Positions 12,596 to 33,727 of a stretch of DNA of 36,786 nt are shown here, one piece after another. Source of the DNA: Nitrospirota bacterium (GTDB lineage Bacteria > Nitrospirota > Thermodesulfovibrionia > UBA6902); contig JACRHB010000170.1 of NCBI GenBank assembly GCA_016217725.1, positions 1 to 36,786 on the forward strand. Direction: 5' to 3'. Position 1 is the first letter of the stretch, and each line of letters starts with the position of its first letter. The notes beneath the pieces are model-generated. The model saw only the letters and a program-made list of their open reading frames with translations, was not told the DNA's origin and did not search any database. The position numbers were made by a program, and so were the translations under genes.

Positions 12596-12596
12596 T

Positions 12597-12690
12597 AAGA
12601 GTTAAGAGTTAAGATAATGTCAATAAAAATGTTATTTTTACACTTTTAACTTTTAACTTTCAACTTTTAACTTTCAACTTTTAATTTTCT
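12597..12690. repeat. polarity-switching heptamer array between convergent genes
   Basis: AAGAGTT|AAGAGTT|AAGATAA, spacer, then ACTTTTA|ACTTTTA|ACTTTCA|ACTTTTA|ACTTTCA|ACTTTTA|ATTTTCT. Confidence 0.85.
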
Positions 12691-13676: not shown

Positions 13677-14702
13677 CTATTCACTCATTTTCTTATACTC
13701 ACGCACCCTGGCTAACATTTTATCTTTTATGCCTTCTTCGAGAAAAGAAGCCTCGAATGAATTCATCGCAAGCTTGTATATATCATCCGCGGTTAAATTG
13801 AGCGCTTTAGTTATTGCTGAATAGTTTTCATTGACATAACCGCCGAAGTAAGCCGGATCATCGGAATTTATAGTGACTAAAAGCCCGCGCTCCATCATTC
13901 TTCGTAAAGGATGCTCTTCCAGGCGGTCTATTACTTTCAGCCTGAGGTTTGAGAGAGGGCAGACCGTCAAAGGTATTTTGCGGCGTATCAGCTCTTCAGT
14001 CAGTTTATCGTCATCAAGACAGTGATTGCCATGGTCTATCCGGGACACCTTCAGCAGCTCCAATGCTTCCCGGACATATTTCGCGGGGCCTTCTTCACCT
14101 CCATGTGCTACCGTTAGAAATCCTGCTTCCCGTGCCCGGGTAAAAACATCCTGAAATTTTGAAGGAGGATTGCCGGTCTCCGCAGAATCCAATCCCACCG
14201 CTATGATCCGGTCTCTATAAGGGAGCGCCTCTTCAAGTGTCTTCATTGCAGCGGATTCATCAATATCTCTGAGAAAGCACATTATCAATCCTGTTGAAAT
14301 GCCAAACCTTTCCCCGGCATCTTCAAGGGCTTTGTGAATACCATCGATTACAGTTGAAAACTTGATTCCCCGCCCTGTGTGAGTTTGGGGGTCAAAGAAT
14401 ATTTCACTGTGAAGGACATTTTGTGAAACGGCTTTTTCAAGATATGCCGTCGTCAGCTCATAAAAGTCCTCTTCTTCGGTCAATATACCGGCCCCTTCAT
14501 AATAAATGTCGAGGAAGTCCTGAAGATTACTGAATCTGTAAGCCTCTCTGATCTCTTCTACTGATTTATACTTGATCCGGGCATTGTTCCTTTTAGCGAT
14601 TTTAAACATTAATTCAGGCTCAAAAGTGCCCTCGATATGCAGATGCAGCTCAGCCTTGGGAATACCTTTTATGAAATCTTCAATAACCATCTGCTTTCTC
14701 AT
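13677..14702 (-). CDS. adenosine deaminase family protein (adenosine/adenine/aminodeoxyfutalosine deaminase-like)
   Basis: IPKAELHLHIEGTFEPE, VAHGGEEG, RIDHGNHCLDD, TVCPLSNLRL, TINSDDPAYF motifs. Confidence 0.9.
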   Translation of the reverse strand: MRKQMVIEDFIKGIPKAELHLHIEGTFEPELMFKIAKRNNARIKYKSVEEIREAYRFSNLQDFLDIYYEGAGILTEEEDFYELTTAYLEKAVSQNVLHSEIFFDPQTHTGRGIKFSTVIDGIHKALEDAGERFGISTGLIMCFLRDIDESAAMKTLEEALPYRDRIIAVGLDSAETGNPPSKFQDVFTRAREAGFLTVAHGGEEGPAKYVREALELLKVSRIDHGNHCLDDDKLTEELIRRKIPLTVCPLSNLRLKVIDRLEEHPLRRMMERGLLVTINSDDPAYFGGYVNENYSAITKALNLTADDIYKLAMNSFEASFLEEGIKDKMLARVREYKKMSE

Positions 14703-20929: not shown

Positions 20930-23266
20930 ATGAATGTCCTGCGCGTCATTATTCTATCGATCCTGGCAGGTCTCTTTTCACCGACCGGCAATTTGCAAGG
21001 AGCGTTACTTAACAATGACGCCTTTTCACTCCGGATAAGGGCGGGCAATCATTCCGAATTTTTTAGAATAGTTTTAGAAGGGCCGGACGCTTTAATATCC
21101 AGATGGAAGGTGATTCAGAAAGCCAGGGAGATATCAGTTCGTTTCCCGGACATGAATTTTGATGTGCCTCAGCAAAGCCTTCCGGTTCCTTACAGGAAAA
21201 TCGATGATGCAGTCGTATTTACCCTCGGCAATCCCTCTGATCTTAAGGTGTTTTTTCTCGATAATCCGGGCCGTCTCGTTATTGACGCATATCCGAAGGT
21301 GCGGAGAAACGGAGAAACGGAGAAGCGGAGAAGCGGAGAAACTGGGAAATTGAATTCTCCCCTTCGCCCACTCTCCCGTTCTCCGATTCAAAGATTGGAA
21401 GAGGGCGACGGCGATTTCGGTCACCCGCTTTCGGGTCAGACAGGGGAGAACAGGGCTTCTGCCGGAGATATTGACAATACTGCCGACGAGGGCTTCATTC
21501 CGGAAAAATATAAAAAAGCATGGACGGCTTTAAAGACGGAAAATAACCCGTACAAAGTGATAAAAGAGCTTTCCGCCGATAAACCGAAAGACCGGCAATA
21601 TTTTGCAGCATATCACTTCATCTACGGAGATGCCTTGAGCGCTGCAGGGAAGCAGCTCGAGGCCATTGAGCAGCTCCGGCTGGCATATATATATTCATCT
21701 CAGGGGGACTTGAGAGAACTGGCGCTTATAAAAAGGGCCCGGGTTTATCAGAAGCTCGGGCGCATGCACGAAGCAAAGGTCAACTATCAGGTGTTTATCA
21801 ATGAGTTCCCGTACTCAAAATATATAGCAAAGGCGCATCTCGGCCTGGCAAAAAGCCTCTTGGAGACCGGCTCCTTTTCGGAAGCCGTCGAACACTATGA
21901 AAATGCGGGCAAGGGGGCTGACGTCATGTTCAGCATGGCCGACGCCCTGCAAAAGCTCGGAAGGACGGAAGAGGCAAAGAGGGCCTATGACAATGCCGTT
22001 CTTTTCGACAGGGCTTATATCGAAAAATCCCCTGAAACCTATTACCTCATGGGCGAGAATATGCGCATGACGGGAAGGACCCGGGAGGCAAAAAAACATC
22101 TGTCCGAGATCAACAGCGGTCCCTTCAGAGATAACGCAAACATGAGTCTCGGACTTATCGCGATGGATGAGTCCGATAATGAGAAGGCGATAGAATATTT
22201 CAAAGCGGCGTCTTATTCGAAAGACAGAAAATTAAAGGTGGAGGCTATGCTGAACCTGTCCCTCGCATATCTGAAAGCAGGAAAGCTGAAGGAATCGATA
22301 GCGAACCTCGAGGTGATCAGGCATAAATATTTCGATTCCTCCGACAGGTACAAGGAGACCCTGCTCGTGCTTTCAAAGCTTTATAAGGAAGACGGTAAAT
22401 ATAACGAAGCCCTATCCTTGCTGAAAGAGCTTGTCTACGGGAAAGAACCGCCGGCCGCGGCCTTCAGCGAACTGGAGGCGATCCTGCTTGAGGCGAGCGC
22501 AAAGACAAGCCTTGACGCTGCAGGCACGATACGGTTTACGGATTTATGGAAAGAGGTCGGCCAGTGGATGCTCGACCCCGCGAGGGAGGAGTTTCTGCTT
22601 AAGATCGCAAAAAGGCTGAAACCCGAAGGCAGGCCTTTTCTGGAATTATGCTCCTGGCTTGTTGAAAATACTTCCGGAAAGGCCAGGACCAGGGCTGCGC
22701 TTGAGCTTGCGGATTATTACGTCGGCATGGGAAACATCCCGGCCGCCGGGCAGTACATAGCTATATTTAAGGATTCAAAAACCAGAGAAGCCGGGGACGA
22801 CGTCCTCAGGATCGAAGCGAGGATAAAACAGGCAAACGGCGAGATCGAGCAGGCTTTAAAAAACCTCATGCAGGTCAAAGAATTCGAGCATAAGGATTTT
22901 CAACTTTTAGGAAAGATCATAAACGACCTTAAAGCCTCACAGTCCAGGAACGCGCAGACGGCCGTCTCCTTGTATGAAAAGATGATAAAGAAGTATGACG
23001 GAGAGGCTGAAGATTACATCATATTAGCCGACATTTATTATGAGAATGAAAAAGACGAAAAGGCCCTTGAATACTACAAGGCCGCTTATGAGAAAGACCC
23101 CGGAGATGAATGGGCTATGTACAGGATAGGCAGCATTGAAGGGCCGGCGGATGAGAATGAGATGCTGGATAAGCTCCAAAAGGGAGACACGCTGTTAGGC
23201 CGTCTGGCGAAGACAAAGCTCAAGGGGATAAGCATCTTTAATAAAATCGACGAGGTGTATCAATAA
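20930..23266 (+). CDS. exported TPR-repeat protein
   Basis: Signal peptide-like start MNVLRVIILSILAGLF; repeated TPR signatures (e.g. EALSLLKEL, ALEYYKAAYEKDPGDEWAMYRIG). Confidence 0.85.
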   Translation: MNVLRVIILSILAGLFSPTGNLQGALLNNDAFSLRIRAGNHSEFFRIVLEGPDALISRWKVIQKAREISVRFPDMNFDVPQQSLPVPYRKIDDAVVFTLGNPSDLKVFFLDNPGRLVIDAYPKVRRNGETEKRRSGETGKLNSPLRPLSRSPIQRLEEGDGDFGHPLSGQTGENRASAGDIDNTADEGFIPEKYKKAWTALKTENNPYKVIKELSADKPKDRQYFAAYHFIYGDALSAAGKQLEAIEQLRLAYIYSSQGDLRELALIKRARVYQKLGRMHEAKVNYQVFINEFPYSKYIAKAHLGLAKSLLETGSFSEAVEHYENAGKGADVMFSMADALQKLGRTEEAKRAYDNAVLFDRAYIEKSPETYYLMGENMRMTGRTREAKKHLSEINSGPFRDNANMSLGLIAMDESDNEKAIEYFKAASYSKDRKLKVEAMLNLSLAYLKAGKLKESIANLEVIRHKYFDSSDRYKETLLVLSKLYKEDGKYNEALSLLKELVYGKEPPAAAFSELEAILLEASAKTSLDAAGTIRFTDLWKEVGQWMLDPAREEFLLKIAKRLKPEGRPFLELCSWLVENTSGKARTRAALELADYYVGMGNIPAAGQYIAIFKDSKTREAGDDVLRIEARIKQANGEIEQALKNLMQVKEFEHKDFQLLGKIINDLKASQSRNAQTAVSLYEKMIKKYDGEAEDYIILADIYYENEKDEKALEYYKAAYEKDPGDEWAMYRIGSIEGPADENEMLDKLQKGDTLLGRLAKTKLKGISIFNKIDEVYQ
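21302..21392. repeat. polarity-switching octamer array inside the TPR ORF
   Basis: CGGAGAAA|CGGAGAAA|CGGAGAAG|CGGAGAAG|CGGAGAAA|CTGGGAAA then AATTCTCC|CCTTCGCC|CACTCTCC|CGTTCTCC. Confidence 0.85.
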
Positions 23267-26145: not shown

Positions 26146-26553
26146 ATGGATATATTCAAAGTAAGCGCAACGGCCCTCGAGGCGCAGAGGATAAGGATGA
26201 ATACGATAGCCTCCAATATGGCGAACGCGCAGTCGACAAAGACTGAATCAGGCGGCCCGTATATAAGGAAGGACGTCGTGTTTGAGACGATGCCGGTAAA
26301 TGCAAAGGCCGATGAAAGGCTTGAAGGGGTAAGGGTGAAAGAGGTCGTAGAGGATAAAAAACCGCTTATAACGCTTTATGATCCGGGGCATCCCGACGCG
26401 GATGAAAACGGCTTTGTAACGATGCCCAACATAAACGTTATCGAGGAGATGGTTAACATGATGATGGCGCTGCGCGCATATGAGGCCAACGTCAAGGCGT
26501 TTAACGTCTCAAAGGGCATGTTCCAGAAGGCCCTTGAGCTCGGGAGGTTATGA
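26146..26553 (+). CDS. flgC: flagellar basal-body rod protein FlgC
   Basis: SATALEAQRIRMNTIASNMANAQST, PDADENGFVTMPNINVIEEMVNMM. Confidence 0.95.
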   Translation: MDIFKVSATALEAQRIRMNTIASNMANAQSTKTESGGPYIRKDVVFETMPVNAKADERLEGVRVKEVVEDKKPLITLYDPGHPDADENGFVTMPNINVIEEMVNMMMALRAYEANVKAFNVSKGMFQKALELGRL

Positions 26554-26855
26554 TGGCTGATATAACGGCGATTAAAAACATCGGCGGCGGCATTACAACC
26601 AACGGCGCCGCGCAGAAAAATTCAGCGAATAACGCTTCAGGGGGCGGTTTTGACGACGTCATCAACGAGGCGTTAAGCAAGGTCTCACGGGTGCAGAACG
26701 ACGTCGACACGGCAGTGGGCGAATTGGCGAAAGGCGGCGACGTTACGAGCGCAATCCTTGCAGTTGAAAAAGCCGATATGTCGTTTCAGTTAATGGTGGA
26801 GATAAGGAACAAGCTCCTGAGCACTTATGAGGAGATCATGAGGATGCAGGTTTAG
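26550..26855 (+). CDS. fliE: flagellar hook-basal body protein FliE
   Basis: 101 aa; ILAVEKADMSFQLMVEIRNKLLSTYEEIMRMQV. Confidence 0.94.
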   Translation: MMADITAIKNIGGGITTNGAAQKNSANNASGGGFDDVINEALSKVSRVQNDVDTAVGELAKGGDVTSAILAVEKADMSFQLMVEIRNKLLSTYEEIMRMQV

Positions 26856-26860
26856 AAAAA

Positions 26861-26959
26861 CGTTCACCGTCAACCGTTCACCGTTGACCGTTAACAGTGA
26901 ACGGATAACGGTGAACAATGAACGGATAACGGTCAACGAATAACGAGAGACGAGGAACG
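26861..26959. repeat. polarity-switching heptamer array (5 forward + 9 reverse units)
   Basis: CGTTCAC|CGTCAAC|CGTTCAC|CGTTGAC|CGTTAAC|A|GTGAACG|GATAACG|GTGAACA|ATGAACG|GATAACG|GTCAACG|AATAACG|AGAGACG|AGGAACG. Confidence 0.92.
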
Positions 26960-26964
26960 AAAAT

Positions 26965-28518
26965 ATGGCGGCGATGGACAACATTATTGCAAATTTGAAG
27001 GCCTGGCCTGCAAAGAAGATGACGGCTGCTTTAGCGGTCTTGATGATAAGCATTGCGGGACTGGTGCTCCTGTTTTCCTGGATGCAGAAGGTTGATTATC
27101 AGGTGTTGTATTCAAACCTCTCCGAAGAAGACGCGGGAAGGATAATACAGGAATTACAGGAAAAGAAAATCCCGTATAAGGCCGGCTCCGGCGGCTCGGT
27201 CCTCGTGGCCTCGGACAAGGTCTACGACGTCAGGCTGCAGCTTGCGTCGCAAGGGCTTCCGCAGGGCGGAGGAGTGGGGTTTGAGATATTCGACAATACG
27301 AATTTCACTACAAGCGAATTCATCCAGAAGCTCAACTACAGGAGGGCGCTTGAAGGAGAGCTGTCGAGGACCATACGCTCTCTCGCGGGCGTGCAGCAGT
27401 GCAGGGTGCACCTTGTCGTTCCTGACAAGTCCGTATTCGCGTTCCAGGATAACAAGCAGGAGACCACGGCTGCGGTATTCATATCCCTTAAACAGGGAAG
27501 GAAGCTTGCCGGAGGCGAGGTGGAGGGGATAATACATCTCGTAGCGAGCAGCGTAGAAGGACTGAACCCGGCGAACATCACAGTCGTCGACAACAAAGGC
27601 GAGCTCCTTCAAAAACCGAATGACGACAGCATGCTGGGCATGAGCGGCTCCCAGATGGAATTTCAGCACGGTTATGAAATGAACATGGCGTCCAAGGTCG
27701 TCGGCATACTTGAGCCTGTCGTAGGAAGAGGGAAAGTGAAGGCAAAGGTGTCGGCGACGTTCGACTTTAAAAAGAGCGAAAAGACGGAAGAGAGATATGA
27801 CCCCGAGGGAGTGGTCGTAAGGAGCGAGCAGAAGAGCTCGGAGAAATCGACGGCCGGAGCCCCTGCAGGCATACCCGGCGTCGCATCGAATCTGCCCGGA
27901 GGCGCGGGACCGCAATTCTCCGGCTCACAGGGACAATCGCAGAAGCAGGATGAAACGATAAATTACGAGACGAGCAAGACCGTAACGCACGTGGTGGAAA
28001 CGCCGTTCACGCTCGAAAGGCAGACGGTGGCGATATTGATCGACGGCATCCTGCAGTCTCAGCAAGGCTCCGTGGAAAATGCAAAACAGTACGTCCAGCG
28101 CTCCGAAGAGGACGTAAGGTTTTATGAAGACATCATTAAAAAGACCGTCGGCTTCACTTCCGACAGGGGAGATGAGATAAGCGTGAAGGTAATGCCGTTC
28201 AGGGAGATGGAAGCAGAGGGCGCACAGGAAGCCCCGAAGGAATATCTCCCGATCATCCTGACCGTTTTGAAATACCTGGCGCCGGTCGTTGCTGCGGTGT
28301 TGTTTTTCCTGTTTGTCGTGAGTCCGATGATGAAATCGCTTTCATCGATGCCGGGAAGGACGCAGACCGTTCAGGCCGGCTCATCCGGGATGGGCGCGTC
28401 TGGAGAAGGCATTATACAGATGAAAGAGCTGCCGGTTGAAAAACAGGTCATCGACTGGGCGAACAAGAACCCCCAGCAGGCTGCCGCGCTGGTAAAGGGC
28501 TGGCTGGAGGAAAAATAA
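26965..28518 (+). CDS. fliF: flagellar M-ring protein FliF
   Basis: YQVLYSNLSEEDAGRIIQELQEKKIPYK, RRALEGELSRTIRSL, C-terminal TM. Confidence 0.96.
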   Translation: MAAMDNIIANLKAWPAKKMTAALAVLMISIAGLVLLFSWMQKVDYQVLYSNLSEEDAGRIIQELQEKKIPYKAGSGGSVLVASDKVYDVRLQLASQGLPQGGGVGFEIFDNTNFTTSEFIQKLNYRRALEGELSRTIRSLAGVQQCRVHLVVPDKSVFAFQDNKQETTAAVFISLKQGRKLAGGEVEGIIHLVASSVEGLNPANITVVDNKGELLQKPNDDSMLGMSGSQMEFQHGYEMNMASKVVGILEPVVGRGKVKAKVSATFDFKKSEKTEERYDPEGVVVRSEQKSSEKSTAGAPAGIPGVASNLPGGAGPQFSGSQGQSQKQDETINYETSKTVTHVVETPFTLERQTVAILIDGILQSQQGSVENAKQYVQRSEEDVRFYEDIIKKTVGFTSDRGDEISVKVMPFREMEAEGAQEAPKEYLPIILTVLKYLAPVVAAVLFFLFVVSPMMKSLSSMPGRTQTVQAGSSGMGASGEGIIQMKELPVEKQVIDWANKNPQQAAALVKGWLEEK

Positions 28519-29505
28519 ATGGGGATCAACGGCTATGAAAAGGCGGCGATATTTTTAAGCGCCGTCGGCGAGGAGACGGCGGCGCAGATATTAAAAGGTC
28601 TGGACCCTGAAGTCATAGGTAAGATTACATCATATATGGCCCGGATGAAGAAGGGCGATCGCGTCAAGATCGAGAGCGTTTTTGTGGAAACGCTGGAGCT
28701 GGTGAAAAGCGGCGACATTCAGCATCTCGGAGGCGAAGAGTACGTTAAAAAGATATTGACAAAAGGGCTCGGCAATGAAGACGCCGAGAGGATCCTCGAG
28801 ATGGCGTCCAAGGTTAGTCCTCTCGAATCTCTAAAGTGGGTGAACCCGAAGACGCTCTCAAGCTTCCTTGTCACCGAGCATCCCCAGACTATAGCGCTTA
28901 TCTTATGCCTCCTTGAATCCGAGCAGGCGGCGGCGATCATAGAGACGCTGCCGGAGCATATCAGGTCCGACGTCGCCCTGAGAGTCGCTACGACGGAGAG
29001 GATACCCGAAAGCGCGCTGGAAGAGATTGAAGAGGTGCTCAAAGTCCAGCTTGACATGGGGAAGGGCAGTCAGGGGAAAGCCTTTCACGGCACGAAAGTC
29101 ATCGCGGAGATACTCAATCACTGCGACAGGACCACGGAGCAGAAGATCCTCGGCAGCATAGACGGCCGGGATGCGAAGATGGCGGATTCGATAAGAGAGC
29201 TTATGCTCGTATTCGACGACCTTGAAAAGGTGGACGACAGGGGCATTCAGCTCATCCTGAAAGAAATAACCACGGAGGACCTGACCCTGGCTTTGAAAAC
29301 GGCGTCTGACGGGTTGAAGCAGAAGATCTTCAAAAACATGTCGCAGAGAGCGGTTCAGATCTTAAAAGAGGAGATGGAGACGAGAGGCCCCGTAAAGGTA
29401 TCCGACGTTGAGAAGGCCCAGCAGAATATAGTCAAGGTTGCGAGAAAACTTGATGAGGAAGGCAGGATAGTGATCGCAGGAAGGGGCAAAGAGGAATTTG
29501 TTTAA
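28519..29505 (+). CDS. fliG: flagellar motor switch protein FliG
   Basis: GYEKAAIFLSAVGEETAAQILKGLDPE, EHPQTIALILCLL, FDDLEKVDDRGIQLILKEI. Confidence 0.96.
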   Translation: MGINGYEKAAIFLSAVGEETAAQILKGLDPEVIGKITSYMARMKKGDRVKIESVFVETLELVKSGDIQHLGGEEYVKKILTKGLGNEDAERILEMASKVSPLESLKWVNPKTLSSFLVTEHPQTIALILCLLESEQAAAIIETLPEHIRSDVALRVATTERIPESALEEIEEVLKVQLDMGKGSQGKAFHGTKVIAEILNHCDRTTEQKILGSIDGRDAKMADSIRELMLVFDDLEKVDDRGIQLILKEITTEDLTLALKTASDGLKQKIFKNMSQRAVQILKEEMETRGPVKVSDVEKAQQNIVKVARKLDEEGRIVIAGRGKEEFV

Positions 29506-30118
29506 AGGAAGGAGCCATAAAAACGCTGAAGCCGTCCTTTTCAATATGCCTTCTCTTGAGGACGAAAGACTGACGGGCGTCGAAGACGCAGCCCTCAGCG
29601 CGGAAGAAATACAGAGGCGGGCCTATGAAGAAGGCTTTGCCTCGGGCGAGAAAGCCGGTTATGCCGCAGGAGAGCAAAAGGCGCTTTTGCTTGCGGAGCG
29701 GCTCGAAAAGATCATCGGCGAGATAACGGAAATAAAGGCCGGTCTCGTGGAAGAGCTTGAAAGTCAGGCCGTCGAGCTTTCTACCGCGATAGCTAAAAAG
29801 ATAATCACCGAGGAGATCAGAACAAGACCGGAAGTCATCGTGACGATAGTAAAAGAGTCTTTAAAAAGATTGCAGCGGACGGGCGTTATCACGATCAGGA
29901 TCAATCCCGCCCTTCAAGAGCTGTTTATGAAGAAGAAGCCTGAATTGATCGACATACATCAGGATATCGCCTTTGACGTCATCTCTAATATCCCGGTCAC
30001 GGCGCCTCTTGTAATAAGCAAAACCGAGGAAGTCGTGATGGACATTGATTCACTGTTCGCAAACGTTATGGAGGAGATAAAAAAGGCAGCAGAAAAACAG
30101 AAAAGAGTTAAAAGGTAA
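29498..30118 (+). CDS. fliH: flagellar assembly protein FliH
   Basis: AYEEGFASGEKAGYAAGEQ, C-terminal FliH region, position between fliG and fliI; TTG start overlapping fliG. Confidence 0.85.
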   Translation: MFKGRSHKNAEAVLFNMPSLEDERLTGVEDAALSAEEIQRRAYEEGFASGEKAGYAAGEQKALLLAERLEKIIGEITEIKAGLVEELESQAVELSTAIAKKIITEEIRTRPEVIVTIVKESLKRLQRTGVITIRINPALQELFMKKKPELIDIHQDIAFDVISNIPVTAPLVISKTEEVVMDIDSLFANVMEEIKKAAEKQKRVKR

Positions 30119-30311
30119 GAGGTAAGAGGTAAGAGTTAAAAGTTATGTTGCATGGACAGACTTACATTTGGCCGTCATTCCCGCAGTCTTTAAGCGGGAA
30201 TCCAGACAGCGTCCCCGCGAAAGCGGGGAACCGGAAGACAAAGGAACTGGATGCCCGATAAAAAACTTCGGGCATGACAAAAAACAACTAACAACTAAAA
30301 ACTAAAAACTT
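30106..30311. repeat. heptamer array / REP / inverted heptamer array between fliH and fliI
   Basis: AGTTAAA|AGGTAAG|AGGTAAG|AGGTAAG|AGTTAAA|AGTTATG (30106-30147); REP GTCATTCCCGCAG..GCGGGAATCC.. (~30173-30280); ACAACTA|ACAACTA|AAAACTA|AAAACTT (30284-30311). Confidence 0.85.
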
Positions 30312-30313
30312 CA

Positions 30314-31645
30314 ATGACCAGCATCGATCTTACTCCATACATAACGGCGGTTGAAAATTCGGAGCCTCTGAAGGTTTACGGAAGGATAACGGAGATAACC
30401 GGGCTCACCATTAAGGCTACCGGGGTCGATGTGAGCATCGGCGAATCCTGCAAGATCTATACGGACAACGCCCCTTCCATTGACGCTGAAGTGGTCGGCT
30501 TCAAGGAAGGACAGGTTATTCTCATGGCTACAGGGGAGGTTTCGGGGATAAGACACGGCAGCAGGGTGCTGCCTCTCGGCAAGAACATCTCTGTAAAAGT
30601 AAGCGACGACCTTATAGGGAGGGTCCTTGACGCGGCAGGCCATCCTATAGACGGCAAGGGAAGCATCGAAGGCCTGGATTACCTCCTTAATTCATTATCG
30701 CCGCATCCCCTCACGAGACATATGATAGAAGAGCCGATGGATATAGGCATAAGGGCCTTAAACGGACTGCTTACGTGCGGGAAGGGACAAAGGGTCGGGA
30801 TTATGGCCGGCTCAGGCGTGGGGAAAAGCGTTCTTTTGGGAATGATCGCAAAATATTCCGAGGCCGCGGTAAACGTCATAGCGCTGATCGGTGAGAGGAG
30901 CCGTGAAGTGCGTGAGTTTATCGACAAGAACCTCGGCGAGGAAGGTTTGAGGAAATCCATCGTCGTAGTCTCAACATCGGAGCAGACTCCGCTTGCGAAG
31001 GTGAGAGGCGCTTTTACGGCGACCGCAATCGCCGAATATTTCAGGGACAAGGGAAACGACGTGCTGCTTCTCATGGACTCCCTGACCCGTGTCGCTATGG
31101 CGCAAAGGGAGATAGGCCTTGCTGTAGGCGAGCCTCCCACGAACAGGGGATACACTCCTTCCGTCTTTGCCCTTCTTCCGAAGCTGCTCGAAAGGGTTGG
31201 CACTTCCGAAGGGGAAGGCAGCATCACCGGCCTCTATACCGTGCTCGTCGAAGGCGACGACATGCTGGAGCCCGTGGCGGACATGTCGAGGTCCGTGCTC
31301 GACGGGCACATCGTGCTTTCCAGAGACCTTGCAATGGAGAACCACTATCCGTCGATTGACATACTTCAGTCCATCAGCAGGGTGATGCCCCACGTTATCG
31401 ATGATAGGCACAGGGAATACGCGGGAAAATTTATCGACGTGCTGTCGACGTATAAGAAATTTGAAGACATGATAAACCTCGGGGCCTACAAGCACGGCTC
31501 AAACTTTAAGGTCGACTACTCGATCAAGACGATAGACAAACTGAGGAGCTACCTCAAGCAGGGGATGAATGAAAGGATAGATTACGCAGACAGCATACAG
31601 GGATTATATTTCATATTCGATGAAACGGGGAGGGAAAATGCGTAA
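30314..31645 (+). CDS. fliI: flagellum-specific ATPase FliI
   Basis: Walker A GSGVGKSVLLG, LIGERSREVREF, DSLTRVAMAQREIGLAVGEPPTNRGYTPSVFA. Confidence 0.97.
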   Translation: MTSIDLTPYITAVENSEPLKVYGRITEITGLTIKATGVDVSIGESCKIYTDNAPSIDAEVVGFKEGQVILMATGEVSGIRHGSRVLPLGKNISVKVSDDLIGRVLDAAGHPIDGKGSIEGLDYLLNSLSPHPLTRHMIEEPMDIGIRALNGLLTCGKGQRVGIMAGSGVGKSVLLGMIAKYSEAAVNVIALIGERSREVREFIDKNLGEEGLRKSIVVVSTSEQTPLAKVRGAFTATAIAEYFRDKGNDVLLLMDSLTRVAMAQREIGLAVGEPPTNRGYTPSVFALLPKLLERVGTSEGEGSITGLYTVLVEGDDMLEPVADMSRSVLDGHIVLSRDLAMENHYPSIDILQSISRVMPHVIDDRHREYAGKFIDVLSTYKKFEDMINLGAYKHGSNFKVDYSIKTIDKLRSYLKQGMNERIDYADSIQGLYFIFDETGRENA

Positions 31646-32676: not shown

Positions 32677-33727
32677 GGGGTCGCGTCTACACATTTCACA
32701 AATCCAGTTTTTTTAAAATATAATCAACTCGTTTCTTCAGCTTTTTGTCTTTGTCTAATTTATGTGAAAAACGTATGCTCGACTGCGACACGGCAGATTC
32801 TTTTATCCCGAAGTAATTCCCGATTTCCTTTAATGCCCTCCCACTATATTTGTGGCATAAATATAATGATACATTTCTTGAAAGTGCAGGGTCAGCGTCA
32901 ATTAATGAATCAATTGCCTCGCACAATTCATTAATATCCGAGGTTGTTTTTAACTCTCTTATAGCCGGCAGATTCCGGTCAATGTTATTGTCATTTATTC
33001 CTTTTATATATTTCTCGCGAACTGTGTTAATAAAATTATCACTCCCCAAAATTGTTGAAGCTGTCGTTTTTTGCAGAGGGGATTCGTAATTGCAGTTAAT
33101 CTTTTCACTTACAAATACTTTATACCTTTTCTGCGGTGACTTGCCCTTTCCGTCGAAATACCTAAGAATAAAATCAAGCGTAAGCCAGTCCGGCTTCTTT
33201 TTCTTGTCGATATAATACGCATAACTTGACCAGCCGTATTTTTCCGGTATATCGACCATGCCTGCCCGAACCGGATTGAGATGAATATAGCGCGAGAGTT
33301 CTCCGGCATAAGCATCAGCATCTACGAGAATTGCTTTATATCTCCCCTGAAATAAATGCCCCGCACGTCGATGCCTGATATTAAAATAGGTGGTATATGC
33401 GCCATTTATATGACGCATGATTTGTGAAAGATTGCCCTTTGGTGTTTCCATAAGGAAATGATAATGATTGCTCATGAGACAATATATATGTATCACTGCC
33501 TTATACCGAAGGTTCGCTGATTTCAGATAGAAAATGAATTGTTTCCTATCGTGATCATCATGAAAAATGTCTTTACGCTCATTACCTCTTGACGTTACAT
33601 GGTAATAAGCTCCTGGAAACTCTATGCGTAACGGTCTCGCCATATCCCATGTCCCCGAAAAATAGACTCTTTTATAAGAAACTTTCACAGGATATCGGTA
33701 GCCTGTGAAATGTGTAGACGCGACCCC
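32677..33727. mobile_element. Y1 (RAYT/IS200-like) transposase element bounded by a perfect 24-bp inverted repeat
   Basis: GGGGTCGCGTCTACACATTTCACA (32677-32700) and TGTGAAATGTGTAGACGCGACCCC (33704-33727) are exact reverse complements. Confidence 0.85.
32696..33688 (-). CDS. REP-associated tyrosine transposase-like (Y1_Tnp) protein
   Basis: MARPLRIEFPGAYYHVTSRGNERKDIF, CLMSNHYHFLMETP (HUH), LSRYIHLNPVRAGMV; C-terminal HTH-like domain. The preferred start is the Met of MARPLR at 33643. Confidence 0.93.
   Translation of the reverse strand: MKVSYKRVYFSGTWDMARPLRIEFPGAYYHVTSRGNERKDIFHDDHDRKQFIFYLKSANLRYKAVIHIYCLMSNHYHFLMETPKGNLSQIMRHINGAYTTYFNIRHRRAGHLFQGRYKAILVDADAYAGELSRYIHLNPVRAGMVDIPEKYGWSSYAYYIDKKKKPDWLTLDFILRYFDGKGKSPQKRYKVFVSEKINCNYESPLQKTTASTILGSDNFINTVREKYIKGINDNNIDRNLPAIRELKTTSDINELCEAIDSLIDADPALSRNVSLYLCHKYSGRALKEIGNYFGIKESAVSQSSIRFSHKLDKDKKLKKRVDYILKKLDL

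Follow-up and report, generated by a model that had tools for sequence, protein, structure and literature searches.

The polarity-switching heptamer array between fliE and fliF of a Nitrospirota bacterium is one of many STRR-like arrays whose units differ at the same sites among congeners

How does a tandem array of 7-base units come to reverse its polarity at a single nucleotide? The gap between fliE and fliF in the 2.77-Mb draft metagenome assembly of a Nitrospirota bacterium raises this question. Bacterial heptamer arrays have been known for decades, and we know of no accepted explanation for either the 7-base step or the inversions. Here, we analysed the window (the whole stretch of 36,786 nucleotides that contains this gap), 673 kb of the source assembly, and the corresponding sites of congeners.

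Results

Sequence, phase, and folding of the array

The array spans positions 26861 to 26959, between the genes named fliE (26550 to 26855, + strand, ending in YEEIMRMQV, a motif common to its relatives) and fliF (26965 to 28518, + strand, with orthologs in 22 of the 40 genomes searched) in the preliminary description. The gapless parse proposed there, with one A separating five heptamers from nine of opposite polarity, is correct, as are its coordinates. The left arm (26861 to 26895, + strand) consists of five CGTTNAC-type units (CGTTCAC, CGTCAAC, CGTTCAC, CGTTGAC, and CGTTAAC), and the polarity flips at the single A in position 26896. The right arm (26897 to 26959, + strand) has nine units of reverse-complement polarity that drift toward the 3' end (GTGAACG, GATAACG, GTGAACA, ATGAACG, GATAACG, GTCAACG, AATAACG, AGAGACG, and AGGAACG). 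The formula GTNAACG given for this arm is loose: two of the nine units match it strictly, while seven of the nine keep the AACG end.

The 7-base phase is far above that of shuffled sequence. Indeed, the lag-7 identity was 0.68 over the whole array, 0.79 in the left arm, and 0.64 in the right arm; lags 14 and 21 equalled lag 7 in height, and the remaining lags from 2 to 20 gave values of 0.07–0.33. Among 20,000 first-order Markov shuffles, lag-7 identity peaked at 0.51, and at no period between 3 and 12 did a shuffle attain 0.68. On these phase statistics, a chance origin of the 7-base phase was rejected. The imperfect hairpin that had been proposed was also recovered, since the array can fold as DNA (−23.7 kcal/mol, z −4.6) and as RNA (−37.2, z −3.5), better than shuffles.

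The last unit contains AGGA (26953 to 26956, + strand), which is likely the fliF ribosome-binding site, judging from its spacing of 8 bases to the ATG at 26965. Both arms lack AGT and ACT, and their G-C skew is −7 on the left and +10 on the right; as the unit is nearly its own reverse complement, polarity is weakly defined in this array. The array does not have the make-up of an intrinsic terminator (a G+C-rich stem with a T run, at a transcript end): no T run follows the stem, and the array sits between two co-directional genes of one cluster. Rfam returned no family in the window. A second copy of the array was not identified, and the sole other inverted CGTTNAC array seen was at L036 17432.

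Other repeats in the window

Two further inverted heptamer pairs were found in the window, at 12596–12688 and 30094–30310. The left arm of the former (TAAGAGT, 12596 to 12614, + strand) comes immediately after a stop codon and the right arm (TTTTAAC, 12637 to 12688, + strand) fills the gap between convergent genes; its hairpin was not clearly stronger than shuffles (z −0.75). In the latter, the left arm (AAGAGGT/AAGAGTT, 30094 to 30145, + strand) overlaps the end of ORF 29498–30118, the right arm (AACTAAA, 30277 to 30310, + strand) lies just before ORF 30314–31645, and a REP-like GTCATTCCCGC...GCGGGAATCC element is present between them, at about 30160–30275. REP-like elements of this type also occur in many gaps of congeners. 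Near this element, ORF 32696–33688 (− strand) carries a Y1 (REP-associated type) transposase domain at 33281–33610. Elsewhere in the window, ORF 20930–23266 contains the octamer CGGAGAAA five times (21302–21342).

Census and placement of the arrays

The fliE–fliF array is not alone in its genome. Scanning 673 kb of the assembly with a lag detector gave 153–161 period-7 arrays, often as inverted pairs, together with 19 arrays of period 8, one of period 6, and four of period 9; periods 4–6 and 9–13 were hardly represented. The first 248 kb contained 57 period-7 arrays vs zero in order-2 shuffles. Extrapolation from the 673 kb gives roughly 600 period-7 arrays for the whole genome. Neither of the two refuting conditions set in the preliminary description applied, as further arrays number in the hundreds and the 7-base phase is well above that of shuffles. 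Their units are diverse, including AAGAGTT, AGTTGTT, AAAAGTT, AAGTGAG, AAGTCAG, and GACTGCT. MutS1 was present in all 12 genomes searched, and mismatch-repair loss was rejected as the cause.

Genes were called with a simple home-made codon-usage caller. On these calls, 93 of the 161 arrays were assigned to intergenic gaps (20–700 bp) and 43 lay deep within genes, so the idea that arrays always sit at gene junctions was wrong. Among co-directional gaps, 40 of 82 had the array start at most 12 bp from the upstream stop codon (null mean 23.6; highest of 2,000 draws, 38). A ladder of stop codons after genes was rejected, as the arrays closed 2.35 frames on the sense strand vs 2.49 on the antisense, with no enrichment of sense-strand stops.

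About a quarter of the arrays are in frame inside what we take, from the sequences and not from a family search, to be conserved enzymes, including MurC, MurD, MurE, Ddl, DapF, and a P-type ATPase. In these proteins, the in-gene arrays appear as in-frame loops, for example SQKSEVRSQKSEVRS, NSKFKIQNSKF, and LVTRHPSLVTRYPSL. The open frame was missing in 0 of the 43 in-gene arrays vs 42 of the 118 elsewhere, the contrast that blind formation of arrays would give if selection purged the gene-disrupting ones.

Units differ at the same sites among congeners

The fliE–fliF gap holds an array in most congeners, with units that differ from one another: AGCTNNN in G002 and G008, TAGCGTG in G009, AAGAGCA in G001, and GTGACGA in G004 and G007 and, inverted, in G003; in G010, the gap is 3 bp and has no array. 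The array is common to G002 and G008, with a REP-like element inserted in the loop of the latter. Like this gap, the MurE, MurC, and Ddl loops have different units at the same site between species; the MurC loop, for instance, is EVRSQKSEVRKKNKQLKTRNSQL in G006 and ESRVKSQELRVKKNKSKLLTHNSKL in G005, and is absent from G002.

G004 and G007 are 92% identical across the cell-wall gene cluster. In the MurD loop, G007 has a single CCAACCC and G004 has four, a difference of exactly +21 bp; the left arm was retained, and a different unit has taken the place of the second (right) arm. In the MurE loop, one genome has AGAAGTC units and the other AGAAGAC throughout, also with +21 bp. These differences are in-place gain or loss of units together with unit turnover; CCAACCC is the one clear case, its direction (gain in G004 or loss in G007) being unpolarised by an outgroup. 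Slippage had been suggested in the preliminary description, as had a comparison of unit number between strains, and the 1-vs-4 difference directly supports slippage.

Inverted pairing and the orientation of the arms

The two arms of a pair tend to have the same period (67 pairs 7–7 and six 8–8, with six mixed 7/8), and their complementarity was 4.94 of 7 bases vs 4.01 for shuffled partners (highest of 200 shuffles, 4.39). Period match and above-chance complementarity point to one arm templating the other. Some pairs join unrelated units (L046 1571 and L044 11983).

The arms also follow an orientation rule. In G000, AGT-type units were in the left arm and ACT-type units in the right arm by 31 to 0. 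Among 296 Nitrospirota genomes, AAGT-AAGT...ACTT-ACTT gave 164 matches, in 35 genomes (per-genome counts summed, overlapping matches included), and the mirror ACTT-ACTT...AAGT-AAGT gave one. In viral contigs, 22 stretches had the AGT-left/ACT-right order vs one mirror, and most of the few pairs in cyanobacterial plasmids agree with it. The viral contig with the mirror order is L200, at 36–73 (ACTTAAG then AAGTTAT). The pair at L046 1571 obeys the rule although its arm units differ. Beyond the AGT arm, 7-base periodicity continues on the 3' side (0.42) and does not on the 5' side (0.26). Hairpin stability does not explain the rule, as both arrangements are equally good hairpins. The fliE–fliF array falls outside this class, having no AGT/ACT in its arms and a reversed G-C skew, and pairs without AGT/ACT are mixed. 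Purine content failed as a polarity measure on AGTTGTT arms; AGT/ACT and G-C skew were better.

Dispersed palindromic classes

In 673 kb, 12 copies of the AGTTGTT palindrome have an identical one-base centre (TTAG-T-CTAA) and unrelated flanks, in which no target-site duplication was visible by eye. About 39 such sites occur genome-wide, with arms mostly of 23, 30, or 37 bases. In the gap at the ftsQ-ftsA position, G000 has an AGTTGTT-type palindrome and G007 has 2 bp. Conversely, the AAGTTAA and AAGTGAG classes have dissimilar centres. The AGTTGTT class looks copied as whole elements, thus at least two processes are at work, and some arrays probably also spread as elements besides growing in place. 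A single mobile element for all arrays was rejected, since whole-element similarity is confined to some classes.

Other composite arrangements were observed. An 8-mer inverted element with AAAAGTGC / GCTCTATT arms and a TTTATTCCTTC loop is found at L046 6566 and L059 3450, in unrelated flanks. The regions L042 6531–6702 and L075 1636–1801 have nested arrays, with outer 7-mer arms of differing units around an inner 7-mer/8-mer pair, and homologous flanks (79% over 219 bp). This was the strongest all-against-all match; as it extends into the flanks, it looks like a duplicated gene region and was discarded as a case of element copies. In several congeners, CCACAGAG...CTCTGTGG palindromes surround array-bearing gaps, sometimes enclosing 8-mer arrays (L079, about 14020–14170; L161, L163, and L166 gaps).

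The source genome has five Y1-transposase genes. Y1 count showed no clear link with array density (G001, two genes and no arrays in 40 kb; G003, six genes and one array in 80 kb), and a Y1/REP transposase was rejected as the cause of the arrays.

Discussion

We class the fliE–fliF array with the STRRs, as a short tandem array of heptanucleotides. It consists of degenerate 7-base tandem units in constant phase and has many dispersed counterparts, mainly between genes; the likeness to cyanobacterial STRR heptamers had been rightly pointed out. The same detector found 32 period-7 arrays in 100 kb of a Nostoc flagelliforme plasmid, inverted pairs among them. Cyanobacterial inverted pairs are few: 2903/2954, 6518/6553, and 46216/46364 in the Nostoc plasmid (L232), and 46212 in Kovacikia (L234).

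In the P6b stem of the Nostoc trnL intron, the arms are complementary heptamers and one unit class repeatedly replaced another (PMC4476775). Degenerate 7-base units, complementary arms, and unit replacement at the same site are common to cyanobacterial STRRs, P6b, and our arrays, whereas P6b is one fixed site, in RNA and with a structural role, and here there are hundreds of sites, many in protein-coding genes (PMC4476775). The TAACTGA repeats of Beggiatoaceae, Microcystis, and Bacteroidetes also form heptamer arrays between genes, in many cases shortly before a start codon, but have one fixed unit and 169 direct sets to one indirect, unlike the many units and frequent inverted pairs seen here; MacGregor cites an earlier proposal that the 7 nt correspond to the stretch in contact with DNA polymerase (PMC4679880). 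The Geobacter metallireducens repeats and H4 elements resemble ours in having paired opposite-strand 7-/8-mers and heptamer elements both between and inside genes, but they are fixed families read as global regulator sites, and the portion of that report considered here describes no unit turnover (PMC2700814). Xanthomonas GGGAATC and Nostoc GGGGA(T/C)T are heptamers, mostly intergenic and some inverted, but form a single G-quadruplex-type unit family (PMC4692102). Borg tandem repeats likewise evolve fast, have independent origins, and lie between genes and in frame within them, but have many unit lengths and near-perfect copies in head-to-tail order only (PMC9879509).

Given the +21-bp unit difference and the whole-array unit change between 92%-identical relatives, we lean towards an explanation in which arrays change in place by replication slippage, 7 bases at a time, and owe their flips to foldback copying. 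A local 7-base word would be the seed of an array, which slippage in 7-base steps would then make grow, shrink, and change unit. The flip most likely would occur when the nascent strand folds back on the existing array and copies it, leaving a complementary arm and a very short loop. Arrays would survive where harm is small, i.e., in intergenic gaps or, when their length changes by multiples of three, in protein surface loops that tolerate it. That the enzymatic step is slippage, that the flip comes from foldback copying, and that the arrays are nearly neutral are inferences; we see no need for a function of the fliE–fliF array. The dominance of 7-base units, the inverted pairing with common period and complementarity, the retention of arrays at the same sites with different units, and the intact frames of in-gene arrays are all consistent with this explanation. 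Among the mechanisms raised in the preliminary description, slippage gained support from G004 and G007 and foldback would account for the flip, while no unit-templating polymerase or recombinase was found. Slippage alone leaves the step size of 7 and the one-sided arm rule unexplained, and foldback copying predicts neither arms of unrelated units nor the replacement of the right MurD arm with the left kept. The AGTTGTT class, with one conserved centre at about 39 sites, needs dispersal, and birth from a local word has one clear case, of unpolarised direction.

That dispersal is the core of a different explanation, in which MITE- or REP-like palindromic elements with heptamer arms were inserted ready-made and then drifted. 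It accounts for the constant AGTTGTT centre in unrelated flanks, the 8-mer element shared, loop included, by L046 and L059, and the occupied and empty ftsQ-ftsA-position gaps, and the five Y1-transposase genes would suit it. We consider it rather unlikely for the arrays as a whole, given that genomes 92% identical carry changed units at fixed sites and that exactly three units separate one array from a local single copy, besides the dissimilar AAGTTAA and AAGTGAG centres, the lack of target-site duplications seen by eye at the 12 AGTTGTT copies, and the absence of a clear link between Y1 transposases and array density. The arm rule is instead what would be predicted if both 3' ends of a break were extended by same-direction repeats and joined head-to-head, as in telomere fusions: this gives a left AGT arm and a right ACT arm in G000, in the 296 genomes, and in viral contigs, even where arm units differ, and agrees with the periodicity that continues 3' of the AGT arm. 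Such an origin appears improbable, as the fliE–fliF array has the opposite skew, pairs without AGT/ACT are mixed, no enzyme was identified, growth from a local word in G004/G007 needs no break, and common descent from one ancestral palindrome could equally yield the rule. Least of all do we expect that the arrays are under selection for a regulatory role, whether as binding sites, as terminators, or in translation control, of the sort put forward for the TAACTGA and Geobacter repeats. The excess of starts near stop codons, the likely fliF ribosome-binding site in the last unit, and the stable RNA hairpin of the fliE–fliF array would fit such a role, but units are unconserved at the same site, arrays also lie within enzymes, the hairpin at 12596–12688 does not clearly exceed shuffles, and sense-strand stops are not enriched.

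In a limited literature search, we found no description of the arm rule or of orthologous sites compared within a genus. This genus makes it possible to follow given gaps and enzyme loops from species to species and to see arrays in the course of change. Any proposed mechanism has to account for the arm rule, which at 164 to 1 constrains it sharply. It is a doubtful conjecture that head-to-head heptamer arrays in several phyla are scars of one break-repair process, with self-templated 7-base extension of 3' ends followed by joining; if true, a single repair process would explain the constant inward orientation of AGT-type arms on the two strands. Finally, arrays in essential enzymes are a route by which repeats of a non-coding type add peptide loops to conserved proteins.
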